Of a stretch of 64,000 nucleotides of DNA, positions 1 through 12,187 are shown piece after piece (the stretch's first letter is position 1; each line of letters starts with the position of its first letter). The stretch comes from Pontiella desulfatans (GTDB lineage Bacteria; Verrucomicrobiota; Kiritimatiellia; Kiritimatiellales; Pontiellaceae): positions 4,216,001 to 4,280,000 of the forward strand of contig NZ_CAAHFG010000001.1 of NCBI RefSeq assembly GCF_900890425.1, given 5' to 3'. The notes beneath the pieces were generated by a model that made no database searches, was not told the DNA's origin, and was given only the letters and a program-made list of their open reading frames with translations. Both the position numbers and the translations under genes were made by a program.

Positions 1-2085
1 GACGAAATGGAAGGCTCGGTCAACATCCGCGCCATCAAGCGCTTCATGGTCGATTGGTACTACGACCGCCATCCCGAGCCGGACTACGGCCCGGTTGAAA
101 CCCAGCTCGATTCCAAGGTCGCCATCATTGGTTCCGGCCCCGGCGGACTGACCGCCGCGTTCCACCTGGCCAAACAGGGCCATCAGGTGACGGTCTTCGA
201 ATCCGAACCGCAGGCCGGCGGCATGCTGCGCCACGGGATGCCCGCCTACCGCATGCCCAAGTCGCTGCTCGACCGCGATATCAAAAACATCACCGCTCTT
301 GGCGTAGAGATTAAAACCAGTACACCGGTCGAAAGCATTGCCTCCCTCAAGGAAGCCGGCTACGACGCCGTCTTCGTGGGCGTCGGCAACCAGAATCCGC
401 GCATTATTCCAATCACCGGAAACAATCTCGCCGATGTTACCGACTGCATGTCGTTCCTGAAAGACACCAATGTCGGCGACGAACTGCCCGACATCGAAGA
501 TAAGGATTTTGTCGTGCTCGGCGGCGGCAACGTGGCGCTCGATGTGGCCCGCGCCGCGGTTCGCATGGGCACCAAGAGTGTTTCGATCGTCTGCCTGGAA
601 GAAAAAGACCAAATGCCTGCGCTCGACTTCGAAGTCCGCGAGGCGGACGAGGAAGGCATCACGTTCTACACCGGCGTCTCCACCAAGCGCATCTACACCG
701 ATGATGCCGGCAACAGCATCCTGGAAGTGCTGAAGGTCGACCAAATCAACTTTGACGAAAACGGCCGCATGACCGGCTTCTCCACTGCCGAAGGATCGGA
801 ACAGCAGATTCCCGCAGACGTGGTGGTGATGGCCGTCGGCCTTTCGCCGAGCACCATCCCGTTCGAGAATGAGCTGGAGCTCAACGGCAACAAAACCATC
901 CCGGTTAACAAGCAAACCCTCCAGACCGCGGATCCGATGGTCTTTGCCGGCGGCGATGCCGTGCTCGGCCCGTCGATCATCGTCGAAGCCATGGGACAAG
1001 GCCGCAAAGCCGCGTTCTACATCGACCGCATGCTCAAGGGCGAATCGCTCGACGTTGGCTTTGAAGTAGAGCTGGAAGCGGCCGACAAAGAGGAGATTCT
1101 CTCCTGTTCGAAGAACTGTTCCTCTCTGGCCCCGACCGCAATCCGCGAACTCGAACCGCACAAGCGTATTCAAAGCTTCGAGGCCTATGAAGAAACCATG
1201 ACCGAAAGCGAGGCGCGCCATTCCGCCAACCGGTGTTTAGGTTGCGGCGAGTGCTCGCAATGCCGGGAGTGCGTGAATGTCTGCCCCGGCGACTGCATCA
1301 ACTTCAACATGGGCACGGACAACCTCGAAATGACCGTCGGCTCGGTGATCATTTCCACCGGCTACGAAATTCTCGATCCGGCCGGCAAGGAACTCATGGG
1401 TTACGGCAGATATCCCAACGTCATCTCCGGCCCGCAGATGGATCGCCTGCTGGCGCCGACCCGCCCCTACAACGGCGTGCTGCGCCCGTCGGACGGCAAG
1501 GAACCGGAAAACATTGCCATCGTACTCTGCAACGGTTCGCGCGACCACACGGTCTGCAACCCGCTCTGCTGCCGCATCGGCTGCATGTATTCCGCCAAGC
1601 ACGCGCAGCTCGTGATGGGTGCGCTGCCGATGGCGGATGTGACCATCTACTACATCGACTTCCGCGCGTTCGGTAAAGGCTACGACGAATTCTACGAACA
1701 GTCGAAGGGCATGGGCGTGCAGTACACCAAAGGCAAGGTCGCCCGGATCGATGAGATCGAAGGCGGCAACCTGAAGGTGCACTACGAAGATATGGAAGGC
1801 GAAGGCGGCCTGCAGGAAGCGGAGCACGACATGGTCGTTCTGACCGTCGGCTTCCTGCCCAATCTCGAATCGCTCAAGCTCTTCAAAGGCAGCGAACTCG
1901 AAGCCGATGAATTTGCCTACATCAAGGAACCGGACGCGACCTCGCAACCGGGACGCACCAACATCGAAGGCTTGTTTGCCGCCGGCACCGTCATCGGTGC
2001 ACGCGACATTCCGGACACGGTACTCCATGCCTGCGCTTCGTCCGCCCAGGCCGCAGGATACATTCAAAAGCTGAGGAACGCGTGA
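1..2085 (+). CDS. GltD/HdrA-like FAD-dependent oxidoreductase, 5' end outside window
   Basis: Flavoprotein that probably moves electrons between NAD(P)H and the Hdr-like subunits encoded downstream. The frame is open from base 1, and the first residues (DEMEGSVNIRAIKRF) match the middle of the GltD/NfnL-type N-terminal region, so the true start lies upstream and the ATG at 7 is internal. An FAD-binding Rossmann motif (VAIIGSGPGGLTAAFHLA) is near residue 40 and a second nucleotide-binding motif (VVLGGGNVALDVA) near 170. A ferredoxin-like cysteine cluster (CLGCGECSQCRECVNVCP) is near 417. The C-terminal third resembles the central part of HdrA (CNGSRD, CCRIGCMYSAKHA, DFRAFGKGYDEFYE). It is thus a GltD-like module joined to an HdrA-like module. 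The HdrA gene follows after a 204-base gap. Class assignment is firm; the physiological donor and acceptor are not visible. Confidence 0.85.
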   Translation, partial: DEMEGSVNIRAIKRFMVDWYYDRHPEPDYGPVETQLDSKVAIIGSGPGGLTAAFHLAKQGHQVTVFESEPQAGGMLRHGMPAYRMPKSLLDRDIKNITALGVEIKTSTPVESIASLKEAGYDAVFVGVGNQNPRIIPITGNNLADVTDCMSFLKDTNVGDELPDIEDKDFVVLGGGNVALDVARAAVRMGTKSVSIVCLEEKDQMPALDFEVREADEEGITFYTGVSTKRIYTDDAGNSILEVLKVDQINFDENGRMTGFSTAEGSEQQIPADVVVMAVGLSPSTIPFENELELNGNKTIPVNKQTLQTADPMVFAGGDAVLGPSIIVEAMGQGRKAAFYIDRMLKGESLDVGFEVELEAADKEEILSCSKNCSSLAPTAIRELEPHKRIQSFEAYEETMTESEARHSANRCLGCGECSQCRECVNVCPGDCINFNMGTDNLEMTVGSVIISTGYEILDPAGKELMGYGRYPNVISGPQMDRLLAPTRPYNGVLRPSDGKEPENIAIVLCNGSRDHTVCNPLCCRIGCMYSAKHAQLVMGALPMADVTIYYIDFRAFGKGYDEFYEQSKGMGVQYTKGKVARIDEIEGGNLKVHYEDMEGEGGLQEAEHDMVVLTVGFLPNLESLKLFKGSELEADEFAYIKEPDATSQPGRTNIEGLFAAGTVIGARDIPDTVLHACASSAQAAGYIQKLRNA

Positions 2086-2101
2086 TGCAGCGGCGCAGTG
2101 A

Positions 2102-2220
2102 ATTTTTGATTGCCGATTTTAGATTGCCGATTTGCGGAACTCAGGCGGCGTTGGCCTTTTTTATGAGAAAGGCGTCGCAGACCCACCAATCGGAAATCAA
2201 AAATCAAAAATCGGCAATCC
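2102..2220. repeat. Inverted repeat in the gap before hdrA
   Basis: The left arm (2108-2132) reads GATTGCCGATTTTAGATTGC and onward; the right arm (2188-2219) read on the opposite strand begins GATTGCCGATTTTTGATTTT. Each arm also contains short internal repeats of GATTGCCGATT or its variant. The element fills most of the space between the two Hdr-type flavoprotein genes and is much more AT-rich than the genes. It looks like an interspersed non-coding repeat; I see no ORF in it. Confidence 0.7.
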
Positions 2221-2289
2221 CCAGCCAATCACTTGAGGTTGCATAATCATGAGACGAAACATGACCGAAGATTTAAGGAGACGGAACTA

Positions 2290-4029
2290 ATGGCTACGGG
2301 AAGAAAAATCGGGGTTTTCATCTGCCACTGCGGCGGGAATATTTCGGACTACGTTGATGTTAAGGCGGTCGCCGAGGCCGTTGCGACGGAGCCGGGCGTG
2401 GTGGTTTCCAAGAACCACATGTTCACCTGCTCCGACGCGGCCCAGCAGGAAATGATCGACGACATCGAAGGGCTGGAGCTCGACGGACTCGTGATTGCCT
2501 CCTGCTCGCCGAAACTGCATATGTTCACCTTCCGCGACATGGCGGAACGCGGCGGTATCAACAAATACCAGTATGTGCACGTCAACCTGCGCGAGCAGTG
2601 CTCGTGGGCGCACACCAACGACAAAACCGGGGCCACCGAAAAGGGCATCGCCCTCGTCCGCGCCGGGATCGCCAAGGCGTCGCTCTCCGTTCCGCTGACC
2701 GCGCTGCGGGTCGACACCATTCCGAAGGTGCTGGTGATCGGTGCAGGCATCAGCGGCCTGCGCGGCGCTCTGGCCCTTTCCGACATGGGCCTCTCCGTTT
2801 TCATCGCTGAAAAACAGAAGGAAGCCGGTGGTGCTGTGAAAAACTGGGGCCGCATGGCGCCGGACGACCAACAGGGAAGCACCATCGTTCAGAACCTGCT
2901 CGACGAGGTGAAGAAGCGCGAGAACATCATGCTCTACACCGATGCCGAAATGATTGAAAAGAGCGGCTACATCGGCGACTTCAAGGTCACGCTGCGGGTC
3001 GGCGAGAAAGAAGCCGTTCAACTGCAGGTTGGCGCAATGCTCGTGGCCACAGGCTACGATAACTATCAACCCGCCGAAGGCGAGTTTGGTTATGGTCTCG
3101 ACGGTGTGGTTACCCTGCCCGAGTTCCGCGACTTCGCCGACCAGCAGGAAGGTGAGCTCACCTACAAAGGTAAGGCCGTTAAGAACGTGGTGTTTGTCTA
3201 CTGCGTCGGCAGCCGCCAGAAAAAAACCGAAGCCTGCCCCGAGCCGAACCAGTATTGCTCGCGTTATTGCTGCAACGCCGGCACGCACATGGCCGTCTGC
3301 CTTGAAGACCGGCCGGGCGAGCTGAACCAGTATCACCTCTATCGCGACATCCGCACCTACGGCCACAACGAAACGATCTACGAAGAAGCCCGTACCCGCG
3401 GCGCCGTCTTCATGCGCTACCCGGACGCCGATGCGCCAACGGTTGCCAATACCGCCGACGGCCTCGTTGTTACGGTGAAGGACAAGCTGATGGGCGGCGA
3501 GGAAGTTGAAATCCAGGCCGACCTCGTCGTGCTCATCACCGGCATGATACCGAAGAAAAACGAAACCCTGATGAACCTGCTCAAACTGCCGGTCAGTAAG
3601 GACGGTTTCCTGAACGAGCTGCACATCAAGCTGCGCCCGGTGGAAACCGTGATCGACGGGGTCTTCCTAGCCGGCGCGGCGCAGAGCCCGAAGACCATGG
3701 CCGAAAGCGTCGGCGCATCGCTCGCGGCGGTCAGCAAGGCCGGCGGTCTGCTGATGAAGGGCTATGTTGATCTCGAGCCACTGATTGCGCGGGTCGATAC
3801 CGACAAGTGCCTGTGGTGCGATGAGTGCCTGAAGGCCTGCCCCTACGGTGCCATCGAAAAGATTCACTACGGTGAAAAGGAAGTGGCCTTTGTGGTCAAG
3901 TCGCTCTGCAAAGGCGAAGGCGCCTGCGTGCCGATCTGTCCGCACGATGCTCTGGATGTCGAAGGCTATACCGACCAGCAAATCACGGCAATGATTGATG
4001 CCTGCAGCAAAGAGGTGGTGACCGCATGA
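2290..4029 (+). CDS. HdrA-like iron-sulfur flavoprotein
   Basis: Subunit A of a heterodisulfide-reductase-like complex, 579 aa, expected to bind FAD and several [4Fe-4S] clusters in the cytoplasm. The N-terminus has the HdrA signature GVFICHCGGNI (Cys12, Cys14). An FAD Rossmann motif (VLVIGAGISGLRGALAL) follows near residue 145, then a cysteine-rich insert (YCVGSRQKK, YCSRYCCNAG). A C-terminal 2x[4Fe-4S] ferredoxin domain has CLWCDECLKACP and CKGEGACVPICP. An in-frame ATG at 2233 exists, but I chose 2290 because AAGGAG at 2275-2280 sits nine bases upstream and the HdrA signature begins right after. The stop overlaps the next start (ATGA). Family assignment is strong; the bifurcation partner is unknown. 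Confidence 0.9.
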   Translation: MATGRKIGVFICHCGGNISDYVDVKAVAEAVATEPGVVVSKNHMFTCSDAAQQEMIDDIEGLELDGLVIASCSPKLHMFTFRDMAERGGINKYQYVHVNLREQCSWAHTNDKTGATEKGIALVRAGIAKASLSVPLTALRVDTIPKVLVIGAGISGLRGALALSDMGLSVFIAEKQKEAGGAVKNWGRMAPDDQQGSTIVQNLLDEVKKRENIMLYTDAEMIEKSGYIGDFKVTLRVGEKEAVQLQVGAMLVATGYDNYQPAEGEFGYGLDGVVTLPEFRDFADQQEGELTYKGKAVKNVVFVYCVGSRQKKTEACPEPNQYCSRYCCNAGTHMAVCLEDRPGELNQYHLYRDIRTYGHNETIYEEARTRGAVFMRYPDADAPTVANTADGLVVTVKDKLMGGEEVEIQADLVVLITGMIPKKNETLMNLLKLPVSKDGFLNELHIKLRPVETVIDGVFLAGAAQSPKTMAESVGASLAAVSKAGGLLMKGYVDLEPLIARVDTDKCLWCDECLKACPYGAIEKIHYGEKEVAFVVKSLCKGEGACVPICPHDALDVEGYTDQQITAMIDACSKEVVTA

Positions 4030-4283
4030 GCACGGCAAGACGCGATATGCGCGAAGTGATGCGCGACGAAATGATTATGCGGGATCGCATTGTGGCGATC
4101 CTGCAGGAGGAAGCCAAAACGGTGCCGGAAGTTGCGGAGGCGCTCGGCGCCCCCGAACATGAAACGGTCTACTGGATGATGGCGATGCGCCGCTACGGCA
4201 TGGTTGAGGAGATCGGCCGCCCGGATATCGACGGCTACTTTAAATACGAGTTCAGGGAACAGGAGGAAGAAGGCCATGAGTAG
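4026..4283 (+). CDS. Small putative winged-helix protein inside the Hdr operon
   Basis: Protein of 85 aa starting four bases before the end of hdrA (ATGA) and overlapping the next gene by eight bases, so it is translationally coupled on both sides. The N-terminus is charged and helical; residues about 20-65 (ILQEEAKTVPEVAEALGAPE, then VYWMMAMRRYGMVEE) look like a small helix-turn-helix/winged-helix fold, as in MarR-like domains. It has no cysteines, so it cannot itself carry a cluster. Its position suggests either a structural subunit or assembly factor of the Hdr complex, or a regulator co-expressed with it. I do not recognise a named family and the fold is inferred by eye. Confidence 0.6.
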   Translation: MSTARRDMREVMRDEMIMRDRIVAILQEEAKTVPEVAEALGAPEHETVYWMMAMRRYGMVEEIGRPDIDGYFKYEFREQEEEGHE

Positions 4284-4581
4284 GGTATCATCAAAAATGG
4301 CTTTGGCCGTAAAGTGCTCCGACACATTCAACGCCGACGCCTGCATGCACTGCGGCGTCTGCACCGCCGTCTGCCCGATGGGCATCGAAATGCTGCCACG
4401 CAAACTCTTCCGCTATGTCCAGGTCGGGCTCGAGGACAAGGTGCGGGAAAATATTTCCACCATCTATTCCTGCCTGCTGTGCGGCATGTGCGCGGAAAAC
4501 TGTCCGGCCGAAGTGAACATTGCCGACAACGTGCGCTTCCTCCGCAAATACATTAACGAAAACGAATTCAATCTTTCCTAA
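4276..4581 (+). CDS. HdrC-like 2x[4Fe-4S] ferredoxin subunit
   Basis: Protein of 101 aa with two classical [4Fe-4S] motifs, CMHCGVCTAVCP and CLLCGMCAENCP, separated by a helical stretch, as in HdrC. It would relay electrons from HdrA to the HdrB-like catalytic subunit. The start at 4276 is supported by AGGAGG at 4261-4266, nine bases upstream; an ATG further upstream in frame lies deep in the previous gene and adds 24 residues unlike the family. It overlaps the small gene before it by eight bases, and the HdrB-like gene follows after nine bases. Confidence 0.88.
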   Translation: MSRVSSKMALAVKCSDTFNADACMHCGVCTAVCPMGIEMLPRKLFRYVQVGLEDKVRENISTIYSCLLCGMCAENCPAEVNIADNVRFLRKYINENEFNLS

Positions 4582-4590
4582 GGAGCCGCC

Positions 4591-5553
4591 ATGCCATTGC
4601 CAACCAAAGACATTCTGGGGATTCTGGCCGACAACTTGAACCAGCGTAAAAGCGTGCTGCCGATCTCATCCGCCGCCGCAACGCGCTGGGCCAAGGGGCT
4701 CGATCTTCCAAAGGGTGGAAAAACCGTTCTCTACACCGGACACCTCTACCAGCTCATCCCGATCATCGATGCGATGGCCGGCCAGATGGCCAAGTTCGAA
4801 GATTCCGCGCTGACGAAATATTTCGGCCTCGGCCGTAATGTGAACAAGTTCATTAACATGACCTTCTTCATGGGCATGATGGCCTCAAAGGACGAGCAGA
4901 AAGACTACGACCGCATGCTGCGCAACATTGCCTTGCTGCTCAAGAAAGCCAGCGTCGATTTCGGCTATCTCTACGGAGAAGAGCTCTATTCCGGCGCGCT
5001 CGTCTACGACGAAGGCGTCGACGGATCGTTTGCCAAACATGCGCAGCGCGTGGCCGAACTATTCAAAAAGAACGGTGTGGAAAAAATCATCACGGTTGAC
5101 CCGCACACGACGCACACTCTGCGCACCGTTTTCCCGGAATTCGTGAAGGGTTTTGACATTGAAGTTAAGAGCTACCTCGAAGTGCTTGCCGAAAGCGGCA
5201 TCGAACCGACGACGCAGATCAGCGATGAACTTTCGATTCATGATTCCTGCGTCTATGCCCGCCATGAAAACGTGGTCGAACAACCGCGCGCCCTGCTGGC
5301 AAAGACCGGGGCAAAAGTGAACGAGCCTCGCCTGTGCGGCAAGAACACGCATTGCTGCGGTGGCCCGCTGGAATCGCTCTTTCCCAGCGAGTCGCACCGC
5401 ATCGCCGGCAATCGCGCGGAGCAACTCAAAGAAAGCGGCGGCAGCATCGCCACCATGTGCCCGATCTGCCTGGTGAGCTTAAGAAAAGCCGCCAAGGGAT
5501 CGGTGAAGGTGAATGATCTATCCGATACGCTTGCAAAGGCGTATGGGGTGTAG
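4591..5553 (+). CDS. HdrB-like CCG-domain protein with a degenerate first domain
   Basis: Presumed disulfide-reducing subunit of the complex, 320 aa. The second half has a complete cysteine-rich CCG set: CVYARH, then LCGKNTHCCGGP, then CPIC, which in HdrB coordinates a non-cubane [4Fe-4S] cluster. In the first half the equivalent positions have lost their cysteines: GYLYGEELYSG stands where CCG is expected and TVDPHTTH where CxxC is expected. It can therefore hold at most one such cluster. It is the last gene of the operon, preceded by AAGGAG and followed by a strong terminator. The natural disulfide is unknown; CoB-S-S-CoM is unlikely outside methanogens. Confidence 0.85.
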   Translation: MPLPTKDILGILADNLNQRKSVLPISSAAATRWAKGLDLPKGGKTVLYTGHLYQLIPIIDAMAGQMAKFEDSALTKYFGLGRNVNKFINMTFFMGMMASKDEQKDYDRMLRNIALLLKKASVDFGYLYGEELYSGALVYDEGVDGSFAKHAQRVAELFKKNGVEKIITVDPHTTHTLRTVFPEFVKGFDIEVKSYLEVLAESGIEPTTQISDELSIHDSCVYARHENVVEQPRALLAKTGAKVNEPRLCGKNTHCCGGPLESLFPSESHRIAGNRAEQLKESGGSIATMCPICLVSLRKAAKGSVKVNDLSDTLAKAYGV

Positions 5554-5709: not shown

Positions 5710-6930
5710 TTAGAAGGTGTAGGTCACGCCAGCGGTCAGCGAGTTCTGGTACATAGTGATTTCGGTGCCAGCGCCCATTCCTCCCGCATCTTTTCCATTG
5801 GCCGTAACCGAATTCTCCAATGCATGGATATAGGCAAAATGAGCCGCCCACTTTTCCCATGCATAGGATGCACCGCAAGCCAAATGCGTTTCCATGATGG
5901 CCGGGAACAATGCATTGCCGAAGGCCGTGTTTTCATCAATAGGAGACTTGCCATAGGAGATGCCGCCGCGGAGGGTCAACGCATCGGTAGCGCCCCATGT
6001 GATACCAGCCTTAACAATATTCTGGTTGTCCCAATTAAAGGTATCGCCCAAGGTATCAAGCTCATCCCAACCAACCCACCGATAGTCCAGAGCGAGCTCA
6101 AGATTATCCAGTACGTTATAAGCCGCGCCGACCGTAAGCTGCTGAGGAAGGTTCAGGGATCCACCCAGAAGCCCATTGTAATCGTCGAATTCCGACATCC
6201 ACTGCTCGGTCATATAGCTTCCGCCAATGGAAAGTGCGCCAATTTTCTGGTTCACACCAACGATGGCACCAATACCATATGCGGTATCCCACTCACCGGA
6301 TGCATAATCATAGGGTCCGGGAGGGGGAATTGTGGGATCCTGAATGAGCATATCGGTTTTGAGGCGGGACAAGACAAAGATCGGCCCGGCACCAACGCTA
6401 AAACCGCTGTCCTTCGCTTTATAGGCATAGGTCGCTGTCATCTTGGCGATGGAAAGCTCGGTCATCATGTCACCGGTGGACTGAGGCTGGCCTGTAGGAT
6501 CCTGGGAGATACGGTTATTACCATAGTCAACGCCCATGCCGCTGGTTCCATAGATACCCAGACCGATAAAACCATTTTCACCATGGCAGCATCCAAAGGA
6601 GCCACTAATCGAAGGTATCACAAACGCACTGCTGTCTTCTTGTGCACCGACACTGCCAGAGCCGTCAGGGTTTGCCCGGTAGCTAACGGTCGAATCCATG
6701 GTCCGCACGGGTGCGAAAATCTGAAGCGAGGCATCGACGCCCATATCCACGTCGGTCAGTCCGGCGGGGTTGAGGATGAGCCAGGTGGAATCTTTGGCCG
6801 AGGCGACTCCGGCGCCGGCGGTTCCCTGCTGAACCGGACCGATACCGATGAGGTTGATGCCTTCCGTGGCGAATAGTTGGGTGGTTGCTGCCGCCGCGAT
6901 TATCGCGGTGGTGATCAGATGTTTTTTCAT
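5710..6930 (-). CDS. FadL/OmpP1/TodX-family outer membrane protein
   Basis: Outer-membrane beta-barrel of 406 aa of the hydrophobic-compound transport family. A signal peptide is visible (MKKHLITTAIIAAAATTQLFA), followed by the FadL-like N-terminal plug region with the LNPAGLTD motif. Many alternating strands with Gly/Tyr/Trp follow, and the protein ends in an aromatic residue (VTYTF), as barrel proteins inserted by BAM do. Length is typical. It is transcribed away from the ArsR-family gene, and the shared upstream region holds AT-rich palindromes that could be a regulator site. Substrate cannot be told; in this context a hydrophobic or sulfur-containing compound is possible but unproven. Confidence 0.88.
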   Translation of the reverse strand: MKKHLITTAIIAAAATTQLFATEGINLIGIGPVQQGTAGAGVASAKDSTWLILNPAGLTDVDMGVDASLQIFAPVRTMDSTVSYRANPDGSGSVGAQEDSSAFVIPSISGSFGCCHGENGFIGLGIYGTSGMGVDYGNNRISQDPTGQPQSTGDMMTELSIAKMTATYAYKAKDSGFSVGAGPIFVLSRLKTDMLIQDPTIPPPGPYDYASGEWDTAYGIGAIVGVNQKIGALSIGGSYMTEQWMSEFDDYNGLLGGSLNLPQQLTVGAAYNVLDNLELALDYRWVGWDELDTLGDTFNWDNQNIVKAGITWGATDALTLRGGISYGKSPIDENTAFGNALFPAIMETHLACGASYAWEKWAAHFAYIHALENSVTANGKDAGGMGAGTEITMYQNSLTAGVTYTF

Positions 6931-7138: not shown

Positions 7139-7148
7139 ATATTATAAT
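7139..7148. promoter_or_regulatory. Candidate operator 2 overlapping a -10 box
   Basis: ATATTATAAT repeats the first ten bases of the 7025 palindrome. It contains TATAAT (7143-7148), a consensus -10 hexamer about 30 bases before the ArsR-family start codon. Binding here would block transcription, which would give autoregulation. No good -35 box is evident. Confidence 0.45.
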
Positions 7149-7176
7149 GCTTAGTGTATTGAATTTGGAGAGATGC

Positions 7177-7476
7177 ATGGTTAAGCAAGAACGAGATGCG
7201 GCGGCCGAAGTGCTCAAGGCCCTCGCCCACCCGGTCCGACTTGGTGTGATTGAGATTCTGGCCAGCGGGGAGCGGACGGTAACCCAGCTTTATGAAGAAC
7301 TCGGGTGCAGCCAGTCGATGATGTCTCAGCAGTTGAAAATCCTGTGCCAGCAAAAGCTGGTGGAGATTCGCAAGGACGGCACGCAGAAATACTGCAGCCT
7401 GTGCAACCGCGACTTCCTGAAGGTGTTCACCTGCATGCACAAACATCTGCGCCAATTTTTGAATTTCCAGGACTAA
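7177..7476 (+). CDS. ArsR-family transcriptional regulator
   Basis: Winged-helix repressor of 99 aa. It has the typical ArsR layout: LKALAHPVRLGVIEILASGE, a recognition helix (CSQSMMSQQLKIL), then a wing (EIRKDGTQKYCSL). Cysteines occur at 44, 57, 73, 76 and 86, enough for a thiol or metal sensor, but they are not placed as in the ELCVCDLC motif of classical arsenite sensors. The start at 7177 is chosen over an in-frame ATG at 7147 because GGAG (7167-7170) lies six bases upstream and the 7147 ATG falls inside a -10-like box. It precedes the sulfur-transfer fusion gene by 73 bases, which suggests a persulfide/sulfide-responsive regulator like SqrR or BigR. The ligand is inferred. Confidence 0.85.
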   Translation: MVKQERDAAAEVLKALAHPVRLGVIEILASGERTVTQLYEELGCSQSMMSQQLKILCQQKLVEIRKDGTQKYCSLCNRDFLKVFTCMHKHLRQFLNFQD

Positions 7477-7549: not shown

Positions 7550-10012
7550 ATGAATATGAAAAAGCTACTCATCATTGGAGGCGTTGCCGGCGGAGCCAGC
7601 GCTGCGGCGCGTGCGCGTCGTCTGGACGAAAATGCGGAAATCATCCTGTTTGAACGCGGGCCGGATATTTCGTTCGCCAACTGCGGCTTGCCCTACCACA
7701 TCGGTGGCGCGATTGCCGAACGAGACAAACTGCTGGTCACCACGCCCGCCGCCATGGTTGCCAAGTTTAACATCGATGTGCGGGTGCTGAGCGAAGTGGT
7801 TTCCATCGACCGCGACAAAAAGGAACTCACCATCAAGAACCTCAAGACCGGCGAGGAATATACCGAAGCCTACGACGCACTGGTTCTCAGCCCCGGCGCG
7901 GCCCCCATTCGCCCGCCGATTCCCGGTATCGACCAACCTAACGTGCTCACGCTTCGCAACCTCGAAGACATGGATCGGATTATCGAAGCGTTGGCAGGCA
8001 AGAAGAGCGCCGCCGTGATTGGCGGCGGATACATTGGCCTCGAAATGGCCGAGGCGCTGCGGGAAAAGAAATACGACACCACCCTGATCGAGCTGGCCCC
8101 ACAGGTCATGGGCCCGGCCGATCCCGAGATGGCCAGCCTCCTGCACCAGGAACTGCGGCTCTTCGGGGTTAATCTCAAGCTCGAAACCTCGGTGACCGCC
8201 TTCGAAGAAGCCCGAAACGGGGTTGATCTGATCCTGAGCGACGGCGATCGCCTGCACGTCGATGTGGCCATCCTGGCGATCGGAGTAAAACCGGAGGCAA
8301 CCCTCGCCATCGACGCGGGGCTGGAGCTCGGGGTTACGGGCGGCATCAAGGTGGACGACCACATGCTAACGTCCGATCCGTCCATTTATGCCGTCGGCGA
8401 CGCGGTCGAAGTGACCGACTTCACCACCGGGCAGCCGGCGCTGATTCCGCTGGCCGGCCCCGCCAACCGCCAGGGGCGCATTGCGGCCGACAATATTTTC
8501 GGGGGCGACAGCTCCTACAAAAACACGCAAGGAACCGCCATCTGCAAGGTCTTCAACATGGCGATCGGCATGACCGGCCTGAGCGAAAAAATGGCAAAGC
8601 GCACCGGGGTATCCTATGAAAAGGTCTATGTGCACCCGGCCAGCCATGCCTCCTACTACCCCGGCTCGCACCCGATCTCGCTCAAGCTGCTGTTTGATCC
8701 GCAAACGGGCAAGGTGCTCGGCGCCCAGGCCGTCGGCGCCGATGGCGTCGATAAACGCATCGATGTGCTGGCCGTGGCGATCCGCGCCGGACTGACCGTC
8801 CATGATCTTGAAGAGATGGAACTCACCTATGCCCCACCGTTCGGCTCCGCCAAGGATCCGGTCAACTATGCCGGCTTTGTTGCATCCAACGTGCTGCGCG
8901 GCGATGTGGCCCTGTTCCACGTGGAGGAAGCCTGCAATCCGGCCGACCACCAAAAATTGATCGATGTCCGCAATCCCGAGGAAGTGGAAGGCGGAACGAT
9001 TCCCGGAGCCAAGAATATTCCGCTCGGCCAGCTACGCGAAAAACTGGCCGACCTCGACAAGGAACGGGAATACCTGATCTTCTGCCAGGTTGGTCTTCGC
9101 GGATATCTCGCCTGCCGCATCCTGACCCAGAACGGGTTCAAGTGCCGCAACCTGACGGGGGGCTATAAAACCTATTCCATGGTCACGGCCCAGCAGCTCT
9201 CGGCCGTTCCGGAAAACGACCAAACCTCGGATGATCCAGGGGAAGAGTCGATCAGCAAAGCCGGAAAACCGACGGCGGCAGGCCATGTGGTGAAGCACAT
9301 TGATACCAGCGGACTCCAGTGCCCGGGGCCGATCATGAGCCTTAAGAACGCCCTCGACGAAATCCAACCCGGAGAAGCGCTGACCATCCTTTCAACCGAC
9401 AACGGCTTTGCTGCGGATATTCCGGCCTGGTGCAACTCCACCGGCAACCAGCTCGATTCCGTGGCCCCGGCCAAGGGCGGCGGCTATGAGGCAACCATTA
9501 CCAAACTCCAACGTGCCGATGTGTGTTCCGCCGTGCATGGAGGCCCCAAGCGCTTCACCAACGTGGTCTTCAGCAACGACCTCGACCGGGCGCTCGCTTC
9601 GTTCATCATTGCCAACGGCGCCGCCACCATGGGCTACGAGGTTACCCTGTTCTTCACCTTCTGGGGGCTTAACATCCTCCGCAAGCAGGGGCCGGTTACC
9701 CTCAAGAAAACCATGATCGAAAAAATGTTCGGCAAGATGATGCCGCAAGGGCCGGAAAAGCTATCCCTTTCGCAGCTCCACATGGGCGGAATGGGGACGG
9801 CCATGATGAAGGATGTCATGAAAAAGAAAAACGTCTCCACCCTGCCCGAGCTGATCAAGTCCGCCCAAAAGAACGGGGTCAAAATGGTGGCGTGCACCAT
9901 GACCATGGATCTGATGGGCATCAAGAGCGAAGAACTGATCGACGGCATCGAGGAAGGCGGCGTGGCGATGTATATCGACCACCTTGGAAACAATGCCAAC
10001 CTGTTCATCTAG
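7550..10012 (+). CDS. CoA-disulfide reductase / rhodanese / TusA / DsrE four-domain fusion
   Basis: An 820-aa protein with four sulfur-handling domains in series. Residues 1-450 are a pyridine nucleotide-disulfide oxidoreductase of the CoA-disulfide/persulfide reductase type (FAD motif LIIGGVAGGASAAARARR; redox Cys45 in SFANCGLPY). Residues about 465-545 are a rhodanese domain with catalytic Cys512 (FCQVGLRGY). Residues about 580-655 are a TusA-like domain with Cys591 in the CPGP motif. Residues about 665-820 are a DsrE-like domain with Cys782 (VACTMTMDLMG). Such fusions use NAD(P)H to reduce persulfides or polysulfides and pass sulfane sulfur between cysteines. The first two domains alone resemble known CoA-disulfide reductase-rhodanese proteins; the extra two complete a relay on one chain. 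It heads a run of small membrane-associated genes and is probably controlled by the ArsR-family protein upstream. Confidence 0.92.
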   Translation: MNMKKLLIIGGVAGGASAAARARRLDENAEIILFERGPDISFANCGLPYHIGGAIAERDKLLVTTPAAMVAKFNIDVRVLSEVVSIDRDKKELTIKNLKTGEEYTEAYDALVLSPGAAPIRPPIPGIDQPNVLTLRNLEDMDRIIEALAGKKSAAVIGGGYIGLEMAEALREKKYDTTLIELAPQVMGPADPEMASLLHQELRLFGVNLKLETSVTAFEEARNGVDLILSDGDRLHVDVAILAIGVKPEATLAIDAGLELGVTGGIKVDDHMLTSDPSIYAVGDAVEVTDFTTGQPALIPLAGPANRQGRIAADNIFGGDSSYKNTQGTAICKVFNMAIGMTGLSEKMAKRTGVSYEKVYVHPASHASYYPGSHPISLKLLFDPQTGKVLGAQAVGADGVDKRIDVLAVAIRAGLTVHDLEEMELTYAPPFGSAKDPVNYAGFVASNVLRGDVALFHVEEACNPADHQKLIDVRNPEEVEGGTIPGAKNIPLGQLREKLADLDKEREYLIFCQVGLRGYLACRILTQNGFKCRNLTGGYKTYSMVTAQQLSAVPENDQTSDDPGEESISKAGKPTAAGHVVKHIDTSGLQCPGPIMSLKNALDEIQPGEALTILSTDNGFAADIPAWCNSTGNQLDSVAPAKGGGYEATITKLQRADVCSAVHGGPKRFTNVVFSNDLDRALASFIIANGAATMGYEVTLFFTFWGLNILRKQGPVTLKKTMIEKMFGKMMPQGPEKLSLSQLHMGGMGTAMMKDVMKKKNVSTLPELIKSAQKNGVKMVACTMTMDLMGIKSEELIDGIEEGGVAMYIDHLGNNANLFI

Positions 10013-10023
10013 CAAAGGGCGCA

Positions 10024-10209
10024 ATGGACAAGACATCCGTCATTAGACTTTGCATCAGCATACTGGTTGGAGGTGTTTTGGGAGCCGTGATGGGATATTT
10101 CGGGAAATGCACTTCCGGCACCTGCCCCCTCACGGCCACCCCCTGGCGCGGCGCCATTTATGGCGCCGTGATGGGCGCCCTCTTCAGTTTTTCATTCGTA
10201 AAACAATAA
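10024..10209 (+). CDS. DUF6132-type small membrane protein
   Basis: Protein of 61 aa with two hydrophobic segments (residues about 7-25 and 43-60) and a central GKCTSGTCPLT motif followed by PWRGAIYGAVMGAL, the pattern of DUF6132 proteins. The CxxxxxC pair would lie at one membrane face. The function of the family is unknown; its place directly after the sulfur-transfer fusion (11-base gap) suggests a role in sulfur-compound passage or membrane-side redox. The start at 10024 gives the expected length; longer readings run into the preceding gene. Confidence 0.8.
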   Translation: MDKTSVIRLCISILVGGVLGAVMGYFGKCTSGTCPLTATPWRGAIYGAVMGALFSFSFVKQ

Positions 10210-10220
10210 GGAGCATCACC

Positions 10221-10679
10221 ATGAAACAATTCGTATACGGAGCCGTGTTCGGCATCGCCGTCGGGCTCGTTGCCGCAGCGCTGACCATGCCTAAACTCAT
10301 GCTGAAGGAGGCCGCCAGTCCATTGGGCTATGAAGAGACCATTGAACATATCCAGAAAAAAGTGACGGATGGCGGCTGGAAGGTGTCTGCACTGATGAGA
10401 TTGGATAAGTCGCTCGCCAAGGAAGGCAAGGACGTGTTGCCGGTCGCCTCGTTCAAGATTTGCCAGCCGGATCACGCCGAGCAGATCTTGCGGGACGACG
10501 ACGCGCGTTTTCTTTCGGTCATGATGCCCTGCTCCATTGGGGTGTATGAAAAGGCGGACGGCAAAACCTATATCTCGACCATGAACAGCGGCCTGATGGG
10601 CCGGTTGTTCGGCGGCACCGCCCAGCAAGTAATGGGAGGCGCCGTTGCGGACGAAACCGCCGAATTCGTGAAGTTTTAA
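10221..10679 (+). CDS. DUF302 domain protein with N-terminal membrane anchor
   Basis: Protein of 152 aa. It starts with a hydrophobic segment (FVYGAVFGIAVGLVAAAL), a membrane anchor or uncleaved signal, followed by a DUF302 domain (VTDGGWKVSALMRLDKSLAK, KICQPDHAEQIL, MMPCSIGVYEK). DUF302 domains are small dimeric folds of unknown activity often found near sulfur or heavy-metal genes. Cysteines in KICQPDH and MPCSIG are candidates for function. AAGGAG precedes the ATG at 10221. It lies 11 bases after the DUF6132 gene and nine before the next, so it is part of the same operon. Confidence 0.85.
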   Translation: MKQFVYGAVFGIAVGLVAAALTMPKLMLKEAASPLGYEETIEHIQKKVTDGGWKVSALMRLDKSLAKEGKDVLPVASFKICQPDHAEQILRDDDARFLSVMMPCSIGVYEKADGKTYISTMNSGLMGRLFGGTAQQVMGGAVADETAEFVKF

Positions 10680-10688
10680 GGAGAGAAA

Positions 10689-11507
10689 ATGACCCTACGC
10701 AAGACCACATCGCTGACCACGCTGCTATCGTTCATCCTGCTGCTGTTCACCAGCATCATCCTCTATGTCACCCCGCAGGGGAAAATCGCCTTCTGGGCCA
10801 ACTGGAAGATGCTGGGGATCGGCAAGGAGGAATGGGGCGCGCTGCACACCAACCTCGGCTTCCTGTTTATTATCGCGGGCATCCTGCACACGGTGCTGAA
10901 CTGGAAGCCGATCGTGGCCTACATGAAAAACAAGGCGCAACAGCTCAAGGTGTTCACCGGCGACTTTAATCTGGCGCTGGGAATCACACTGGTCATCGTG
11001 TTGTTCACCATGTTCGAGCTTCCGCCGATCGTTGGCGTCCAGCGCTTCAACGAAAAGCTGAAGGATGCCGCCGCCAAGGAATACGGCGAACCGCCCTACG
11101 GCCATGCCGAGGCCTCGCCGCTCAAGTCGTTCTGCAAGCGCACCGGACTGGATGTGGACGAATCCATCAAGAAGATGGAAGAGCAAGGTCTTGAAGGGGT
11201 TTCCGACACAGCCACGCTGGCCCAGATCGCCGAAGCCAATGCCATGACCCCGCAGCAGGTCTACAACCTCATCAAGCCCGCCCCCGTCGCCAAGAGCAAT
11301 GGCATGCCCGAACATCCCGGAACAGGCTTCGGGCGCAAAACCCTCGGCGACGTTTGCGGAGAATTCAAGCTGGATACCGATGCCATGATCAAGGGCCTGA
11401 AGGGCGAAGGCATCGAAGCCGAAGCAACGGCCACCATGAAGGCGATTGCCGAGAAGCACAGCATGGATCCCCACGGCATCTACGAAGTGATGCTTCAGTT
11501 GCAATAA
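10689..11507 (+). CDS. DUF4405 membrane protein with two cysteine-bearing helical repeats
   Basis: Protein of 272 aa. Three hydrophobic helices occupy residues about 8-28, 50-75 and 92-115. Histidines in WGALHTNLGF and AGILHTVLNW are spaced one helical stretch apart and could ligate haem b, as proposed for DUF4405-type cytochrome-like proteins. The soluble C-terminal half holds two copies of a module of about 55 residues, beginning SFCKRTGLDVDESIKKMEEQ and DVCGEFKLDTDAMIKGLKGE, each with one conserved Cys and an LxxIAExxxMxPxxVY tail. The paralogue downstream has one copy. Membrane electron transfer linked to the sulfur fusion is plausible but inferred. Confidence 0.8.
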   Translation: MTLRKTTSLTTLLSFILLLFTSIILYVTPQGKIAFWANWKMLGIGKEEWGALHTNLGFLFIIAGILHTVLNWKPIVAYMKNKAQQLKVFTGDFNLALGITLVIVLFTMFELPPIVGVQRFNEKLKDAAAKEYGEPPYGHAEASPLKSFCKRTGLDVDESIKKMEEQGLEGVSDTATLAQIAEANAMTPQQVYNLIKPAPVAKSNGMPEHPGTGFGRKTLGDVCGEFKLDTDAMIKGLKGEGIEAEATATMKAIAEKHSMDPHGIYEVMLQLQ

Positions 11508-11569: not shown

Positions 11570-12187
11570 ATGTCGCCGAGAAGAATTACATCGTTAACCG
11601 CCCTGCTCTCGTTCATGGCATTGGCATTCACCAGTGTCGTGTCCTATCTTGCCCCGCGCGGCCCCGGCTCCAGCAGCTGGGAAGCGCTGGGCATGGACAA
11701 GCACCGCTGGTTTGCCCTGCACACCGATCTCGGCGTCCTGTTCCTGGTCGCCTGCATCGTGCATACGCTCTACAACATCAAGCCGATCATCGCCTACATG
11801 AAAAACACGTTCGGGCACTTCCGGCTGTTCACCATCAACTTCAACATTGCCCTGGCCCTGACGTTGTGGATGATCATGAGTTCACTCTTCAGCCTGCCCC
11901 CCGTCAGCGCCATCCAGCGCTATAAGGAAAGCCGGGGCAACCGGGAGCGGCACCACCCGGAAGCCGTTGCAGCGGGAAAAGCATCCCTTCCCGCAAACCC
12001 GCCGTTTTTCTATAGCCGCAAATCCCTAGGCGGCCTTTGCGAAAAATACCACCTCAACGAGGGGAAGCTCCTCGAACAGCTTGAACGCCTCGGCATCAAG
12101 GCCCAGGGGGATTGGTCGATCAAGCGGATCGCCGAGGAAAACGACATGGCCTCCGAATCGGTGTACGAGGCGATCAAAGGGATGTAG
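11570..12187 (+). CDS. DUF4405 membrane protein, shorter paralogue
   Basis: Protein of 205 aa, clearly related to the preceding gene: same start (ITSLTALLSFMALAFTSVVS), same histidine pair (WFALHTDLGV, CIVHTLYNIKPIIAYMKN) and three membrane helices. It carries a single C-terminal copy of the cysteine-bearing module (SLGGLCEKYHLNEGKLLEQL, then IAEENDMASESVYEAI). A 62-base gap separates the two, with no obvious Shine-Dalgarno sequence before 11570. It ends the plus-strand run; the next gene is convergent. It probably arose by tandem duplication with loss or gain of one module. Confidence 0.78.
   Translation: MSPRRITSLTALLSFMALAFTSVVSYLAPRGPGSSSWEALGMDKHRWFALHTDLGVLFLVACIVHTLYNIKPIIAYMKNTFGHFRLFTINFNIALALTLWMIMSSLFSLPPVSAIQRYKESRGNRERHHPEAVAAGKASLPANPPFFYSRKSLGGLCEKYHLNEGKLLEQLERLGIKAQGDWSIKRIAEENDMASESVYEAIKGM

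Follow-up and report, generated by a model that had tools for sequence, protein, structure and literature searches.

Pontiella desulfatans, P. sulfatireligans and K. glycovorans are on record as reducers of elemental sulfur that do not reduce thiosulfate (PMC7356697). No genes for a polysulfide reductase, a molybdoenzyme or Dsr proteins were found by the authors of that study, who called the mechanism of sulfur reduction unclear (PMC7356697). Which gene could be responsible is the question raised by a locus of P. desulfatans, analysed here within a stretch of 64,000 nucleotides (the window). The source genome comprises 8,658,305 bases in 6 contigs and the named members of the group are Pontiella and Pontiellaceae. 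The window has a G+C content of 59.1%; for P. desulfatans the published average over the whole genome is 56.0%.

The original prediction was that one gene of this locus encodes a reductase, a rhodanese, a TusA carrier and a DsrE-type acceptor on a single chain, with cysteine centres at residues 45, 512, 591 and 782. A Pfam domain search of the 820-residue protein recovered all four domains, each of the five domain matches exceeding its curated cut-off, and the cysteine positions proved exact (Table 1). Against the NCBIfam CoA-disulfide reductase equivalog TIGR03385, the protein scored 499.5 bits, which is under the cut-off of 578.8, and it is therefore not filed as a member of that equivalog.

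Table 1. The four-domain gene, its domains and cysteine centres, and the neighbouring genes (positions in the window; aa, residues of the encoded protein)
Feature	Position	Strand	Evidence or remark
OmpP1/FadL-type outer-membrane transporter, divergent	5710..6930	-	PF03349; conserved beside the ArsR gene in several relatives (synteny)
ArsR/SmtB-family repressor, 73 nt upstream of the four-domain gene	7147..7476	+	PF01022, NF033788
Four-domain CoADR-rhodanese-TusA-DsrE2 protein, 820 aa	7550..10012	+	ORF, Pfam, conservation, AlphaFold2
Flavin CoA-disulfide/persulfide reductase domain, aa 5-432	7562..8845	+	PF07992 (Pyr_redox_2, aa 5-300, 215 bits); PF02852 (Pyr_redox_dim, aa 330-432, 66 bits); nearest solved structures in the text
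Cys45, flavin-site cysteine, motif FANCGLPY	7682..7684	+	59/59 Cys
Rhodanese domain, aa 466-542	8945..9175	+	PF00581 (Rhodanese, 54 bits)
Cys512, rhodanese cysteine	9083..9085	+	59/59 Cys
Flexible linker between rhodanese and TusA, aa 548-574	9191..9271	+	pLDDT <50; 20-51 aa among homologues
TusA domain, aa 583-652	9296..9505	+	PF01206 (TusA, 69 bits)
Cys591, TusA CPGP cysteine	9320..9322	+	59/59 Cys
DsrE2 domain, aa 670-815	9557..9994	+	PF13686 (DrsE_2, 203 bits)
Cys782, DsrE2 cysteine	9893..9895	+	59/59 Cys
DUF6132 small membrane protein	10027..10209	+	PF19628
DUF302 protein	10224..10679	+	PF03625
DUF4405 membrane protein	10689..11507	+	PF14358
Second DUF4405 membrane protein	11570..12187	+	PF14358

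Conservation was assessed in 59 full-length homologous ORFs (45-100% identity), taken from 122 loci as those spanning at least 90% of the protein; this set includes the gene of the window itself and a few loci fetched twice, and 47 of its members differ mutually by more than 15%. All four cysteines are kept throughout, down to 45% identity, so that the objection named at the outset, that orthologues might lack these cysteines, fails. The six remaining cysteines of the window protein are variable among the 59 ORFs; Cys628, in the TusA domain, is Cys in 48 of them. Tyr369 and Tyr427 are invariant in an alignment of 60 sequences and would correspond to the catalytic tyrosines Y361 and Y419 of S. 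aureus CoADR, an equivalence read from the motif rather than from an alignment with 1yqz. E181, an acidic residue that follows the second Rossmann strand at a position bearing on a preference for NADH, is present in 56 of the 60 sequences and also in Npsr.

The AlphaFold2 model, for which 41 aligned sequences were supplied and five plasmid-record sequences left out, has all four domains folded (mean pLDDT 86, pTM 0.65); residues 548-574 form a disordered linker, and there is a weak hinge near residues 657-664. At this pTM the relative placement of the four domains is unproven. In a Foldseek search, the first two domains were 49-56% identical to Shewanella Npsr, B. anthracis CoADR-RHD and E. 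faecalis CoAPR, the nearest solved structures being 3nta/3nt6 (NADH-dependent persulfide reductase) and 3ict (CoADR-RHD). The resemblance extends over the first 546 residues and includes a common fold and both catalytic cysteines; the single flavin-site Cys and the C-terminal rhodanese Cys are present as in the NADH-dependent persulfide reductase and CoADR-RHD (3nta alignment; invariance). These three enzymes end after the rhodanese domain, whereas the window protein adds TusA and DsrE2. In E. faecalis CoAPR, the rhodanese Cys508 is persulfidated in vivo and both cysteines are required; a distance of about 27 angstroms separates the two, from one protomer to the other, and a CoA ferry has been proposed to bridge it (PMC9405070). 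By analogy, the N-terminal half of the window protein very probably works as a persulfide reductase, with CoA as the sulfur ferry linking the rhodanese cysteine and the one at the flavin site.

Such modules had been expected to occur as separate proteins, or with at most two or three of them fused, but this expectation does not agree with the literature, where a chain of all four is on record (PMC3543383; PMC6158253), or with its wide occurrence. The four domains were described for Pcar_0429 of Pelobacter carbinolicus, which is among the genes most upregulated for S0 reduction (Aklujkar et al. 2012, PMC3543383) and was proposed as a cytoplasmic sulfur reductase, with rhodanese sulfur passing through TusA and DsrE to sulfide and electrons supplied by NADH through FAD (PMC3543383). 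The same domains were listed in a 2018 study of BmoR for BF638R_0572 of Bacteroides fragilis, which is 50-fold upregulated in a bmoR mutant and whose loss leads to diamide sensitivity (PMC6158253). Compared by their published descriptions, both have the four domains in identical order, the spans in BF638R_0572 being also the same, both are sulfur or redox regulated, and the mechanism of relay to sulfide proposed for Pcar_0429 is similar to the one set out below. Their surroundings are unlike those in the window: BF638R_0572 adjoins the MarR-type BmoR and Pcar_0429 adjoins periplasmic thioredoxins and an outer-membrane protein, in contrast to the ArsR, FadL and DUF6132/302/4405 genes found here.

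S. aureus CstA, with one cysteine in each of its three domains, resembles the three C-terminal domains of the window protein on one chain. A review citing Higgins 2015 describes CstA as a rhodanese-TusA-DsrE chain (PMC9918477). CstA is without the flavin reductase, and its oxidation operon, which is under CstR control, also encodes SQR and a persulfide dioxygenase; assignment of the window protein as CstA was rejected on its fused reductase domain and its neighbouring regulator, which is ArsR and not CstR.

A match to the protein at E <= 1e-200 was found in 87 of the 288 well-completed genomes sampled from the phylum, and 85 of these matches span essentially the whole protein, a full-length count that omits genomes G071 and G245. 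In the class sample the figure was 64 of 184 genomes (about 60 full length). DsrE2 domains across the class lie mostly inside open frames at least about 800 aa long and so form part of the fusion; stand-alone DsrE2 is absent from many of the fusion-carrying genomes, and other genomes of the class have the two-domain reductase-rhodanese form only. Full-length copies also occur in Clostridia, Mycoplasmatota, Lentisphaerae, Bacteroidota and Fusobacteriota, and the Parabacteroides and B. finegoldii homologues align over the full length at about 48-50% identity. In Bacilli the modules are separate genes grouped within a few kilobases in one cluster, namely a reductase-rhodanese (sometimes with TusA), TusA, DsrE2 and extra rhodaneses. 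Rarity of the fusion is ruled out by this distribution (85/288 genomes of the phylum, and other phyla) together with the literature; the architecture was already described in 2012 and the window protein adds one more member. The copy in one relative with a 7.4 Mb genome is 89% identical. In one relative (G071:C10:926133-928582) two adjoining frames encode the protein, parted at the linker between rhodanese and TusA by a natural split or a frameshift.

Among the loci fetched around the four-domain gene, 28 have an ArsR homologue, three of these being duplicate fetches. ArsR relatives with differing cysteine patterns precede the gene in Peptoclostridium, Peptostreptococcus, Haloimpatiens and Clostridium, and the pairing thus recurs in clostridial genera; the adjacent ArsR regulator probably controls the four-domain gene. 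Two known identities were considered for the regulator and rejected. The BigR model gave 53.7 bits against a cut-off of 155, and a persulfide sensor of the SqrR type, whose cysteine pair is C41/C107, is contradicted by an Ile aligned at the SqrR helix-2 Cys. Residues Cys54, Cys67, Cys83 and Cys96 are conserved in most near relatives, none of them at the SqrR helix-2 position, and the clostridial ArsR neighbours have a different cysteine pair. These four cysteines possibly form a separate thiol or metal sensing site.

On the observed domains, conserved cysteines, fold and gene context, the protein is best read as a persulfide relay that ends in a sulfur reductase, and the original interpretation is partly supported. 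We consider it moderately probable that the protein is an NAD(P)H-dependent (probably NADH-dependent) persulfide or polysulfide reductase whose relay has its own sulfur-collecting arm; the direction of transfer, the substrate and the physiology are what we infer. Sulfane sulfur, as polysulfide or as protein or CoA persulfide, would load the cysteines of DsrE2, TusA and rhodanese. The persulfide on Cys512 would then pass to bound CoA and on to Cys45 beside the FAD, after the E. faecalis CoAPR proposal, and reduction of FAD by NAD(P)H would release sulfide. The long disordered linker may let the TusA-DsrE2 arm swing, so that the tethered arm could bring in sulfane sulfur, or hold and buffer it. 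For a fermenter of the Pontiella type, the enzyme may offer an electron sink for elemental sulfur or polysulfide as well as protection from excess sulfane sulfur. The reading draws on the identity of 49-56% to characterised persulfide reductases, the invariance of the four cysteines and of Tyr369 and Tyr427, the Pcar_0429 precedent, the module clusters of Bacilli, the ArsR pairing in Clostridia and the absence of PF00384 described below. Counted against it are the TIGR03385 score under the cut-off, the pTM of 0.65 and the diamide sensitivity of the B. fragilis mutant, which also fits a thiol-redox role (PMC6158253).

That role can be stated as an explanation in its own right, in which the enzyme keeps CoA and protein thiols reduced and clears reactive sulfur species, with no part as a respiratory enzyme or electron sink. 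It would account for the 50-fold derepression of the homologous B. fragilis gene without BmoR and the diamide phenotype of its loss (PMC6158253), the CoAPR and CstA systems are sulfide- or persulfide-stress operons, and a thiol-rich ArsR-type regulator adjoins the gene in the window. That Pcar_0429 belongs to the most strongly upregulated genes when S0 is the electron acceptor speaks against it, though this may itself be a stress response, and we regard this explanation as rather unlikely.

Upstream, an Hdr-like cluster on the same strand occupies window positions 7-5553 (+) and continues past the left edge (L092, 9542-14085). It encodes an ArsR protein, a stand-alone DsrE2, FlpD/MvhD, an HdrA/GltD-like hybrid, HdrA, and HdrC-like and HdrB-like proteins. 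With a DsrE2 of its own, this cluster is plausibly a sulfur-related electron-transfer system in a glycan-fermenting bacterium, and a functional link to the fusion is suggested by position only. Its proximity bears on another explanation, that sulfur runs outward from rhodanese through TusA and DsrE2 to a partner, for example this HdrABC-like/DsrE2 system or a biosynthetic pathway. Transfer from rhodanese through TusA to DsrE is reviewed as established in Allochromatium, and from rhodanese to TusA as established in CstA (PMC9918477). A fused NAD(P)H reductase domain, however, would drain the persulfide, and many fusion-holding genomes are without a stand-alone DsrE2; outward delivery is judged improbable.

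Returning to the reductase relay, a profile search found the molybdopterin oxidoreductase family PF00384 absent from the source genome and two relatives, one of them the 7.4 Mb genome with the 89% identical copy. Since the organism reduces S0 without a known reductase and without PF00384, the four-domain protein is a good candidate for S0 reduction in Pontiella and the most obvious one, a link not met in the literature examined. The match between gene and phenotype is incomplete, as it covers the Pontiella-type genomes, with K. glycovorans outside the comparison. A fuller version, in which the fusion is the missing S0 or polysulfide reductase of the Pontiella-type Kiritimatiellales, molybdenum-free, cytoplasmic, fed by a FadL-type transporter and tied to the DsrE2/HdrABC-like system, is put forward tentatively as a possibility. 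The organism was also expected to be rich in sulfatases, which is true, but sulfatases release sulfate and not sulfane sulfur, so that this richness gives no mechanistic link. The novelty does not lie in the architecture; the value lies in a concrete, directly testable gene for the puzzle of S0 reduction in Pontiella and Kiritimatiella. Members of the four-domain family are common among anaerobes of gut and sediment, and a literature search turned up no biochemistry for any of them; a thorough study of one member would therefore clarify how sulfur is handled in many genomes.

The genes that follow the four-domain gene had been described as an operon of small membrane proteins forming, with the fusion, a self-contained machine. 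The downstream run is real, with successive gaps of 14, 14, 9 and 62 nt from the four-domain gene through DUF6132 and DUF302 to the two DUF4405 genes, but three of its products, DUF302 and both DUF4405 proteins, are 151-272 aa long and so not tiny. In tblastn searches the DUF6132, DUF302 and DUF4405 genes lay beside Pontiella-type copies only, and not beside clostridial, Lentisphaerae or other copies, and they were rejected as core partners; the notion of a self-contained machine is weak because these genes were found only at Pontiella-type loci. The FadL-type transporter was likewise detected at Pontiella-type loci only. The two DUF4405 proteins are possibly partners of the sulfur genes with a link to quinone or haem. 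They share 38% identity along part of their sequence and have a C-terminal region of no recognised kind, and their membrane segments contain histidines that are possible haem ligands.
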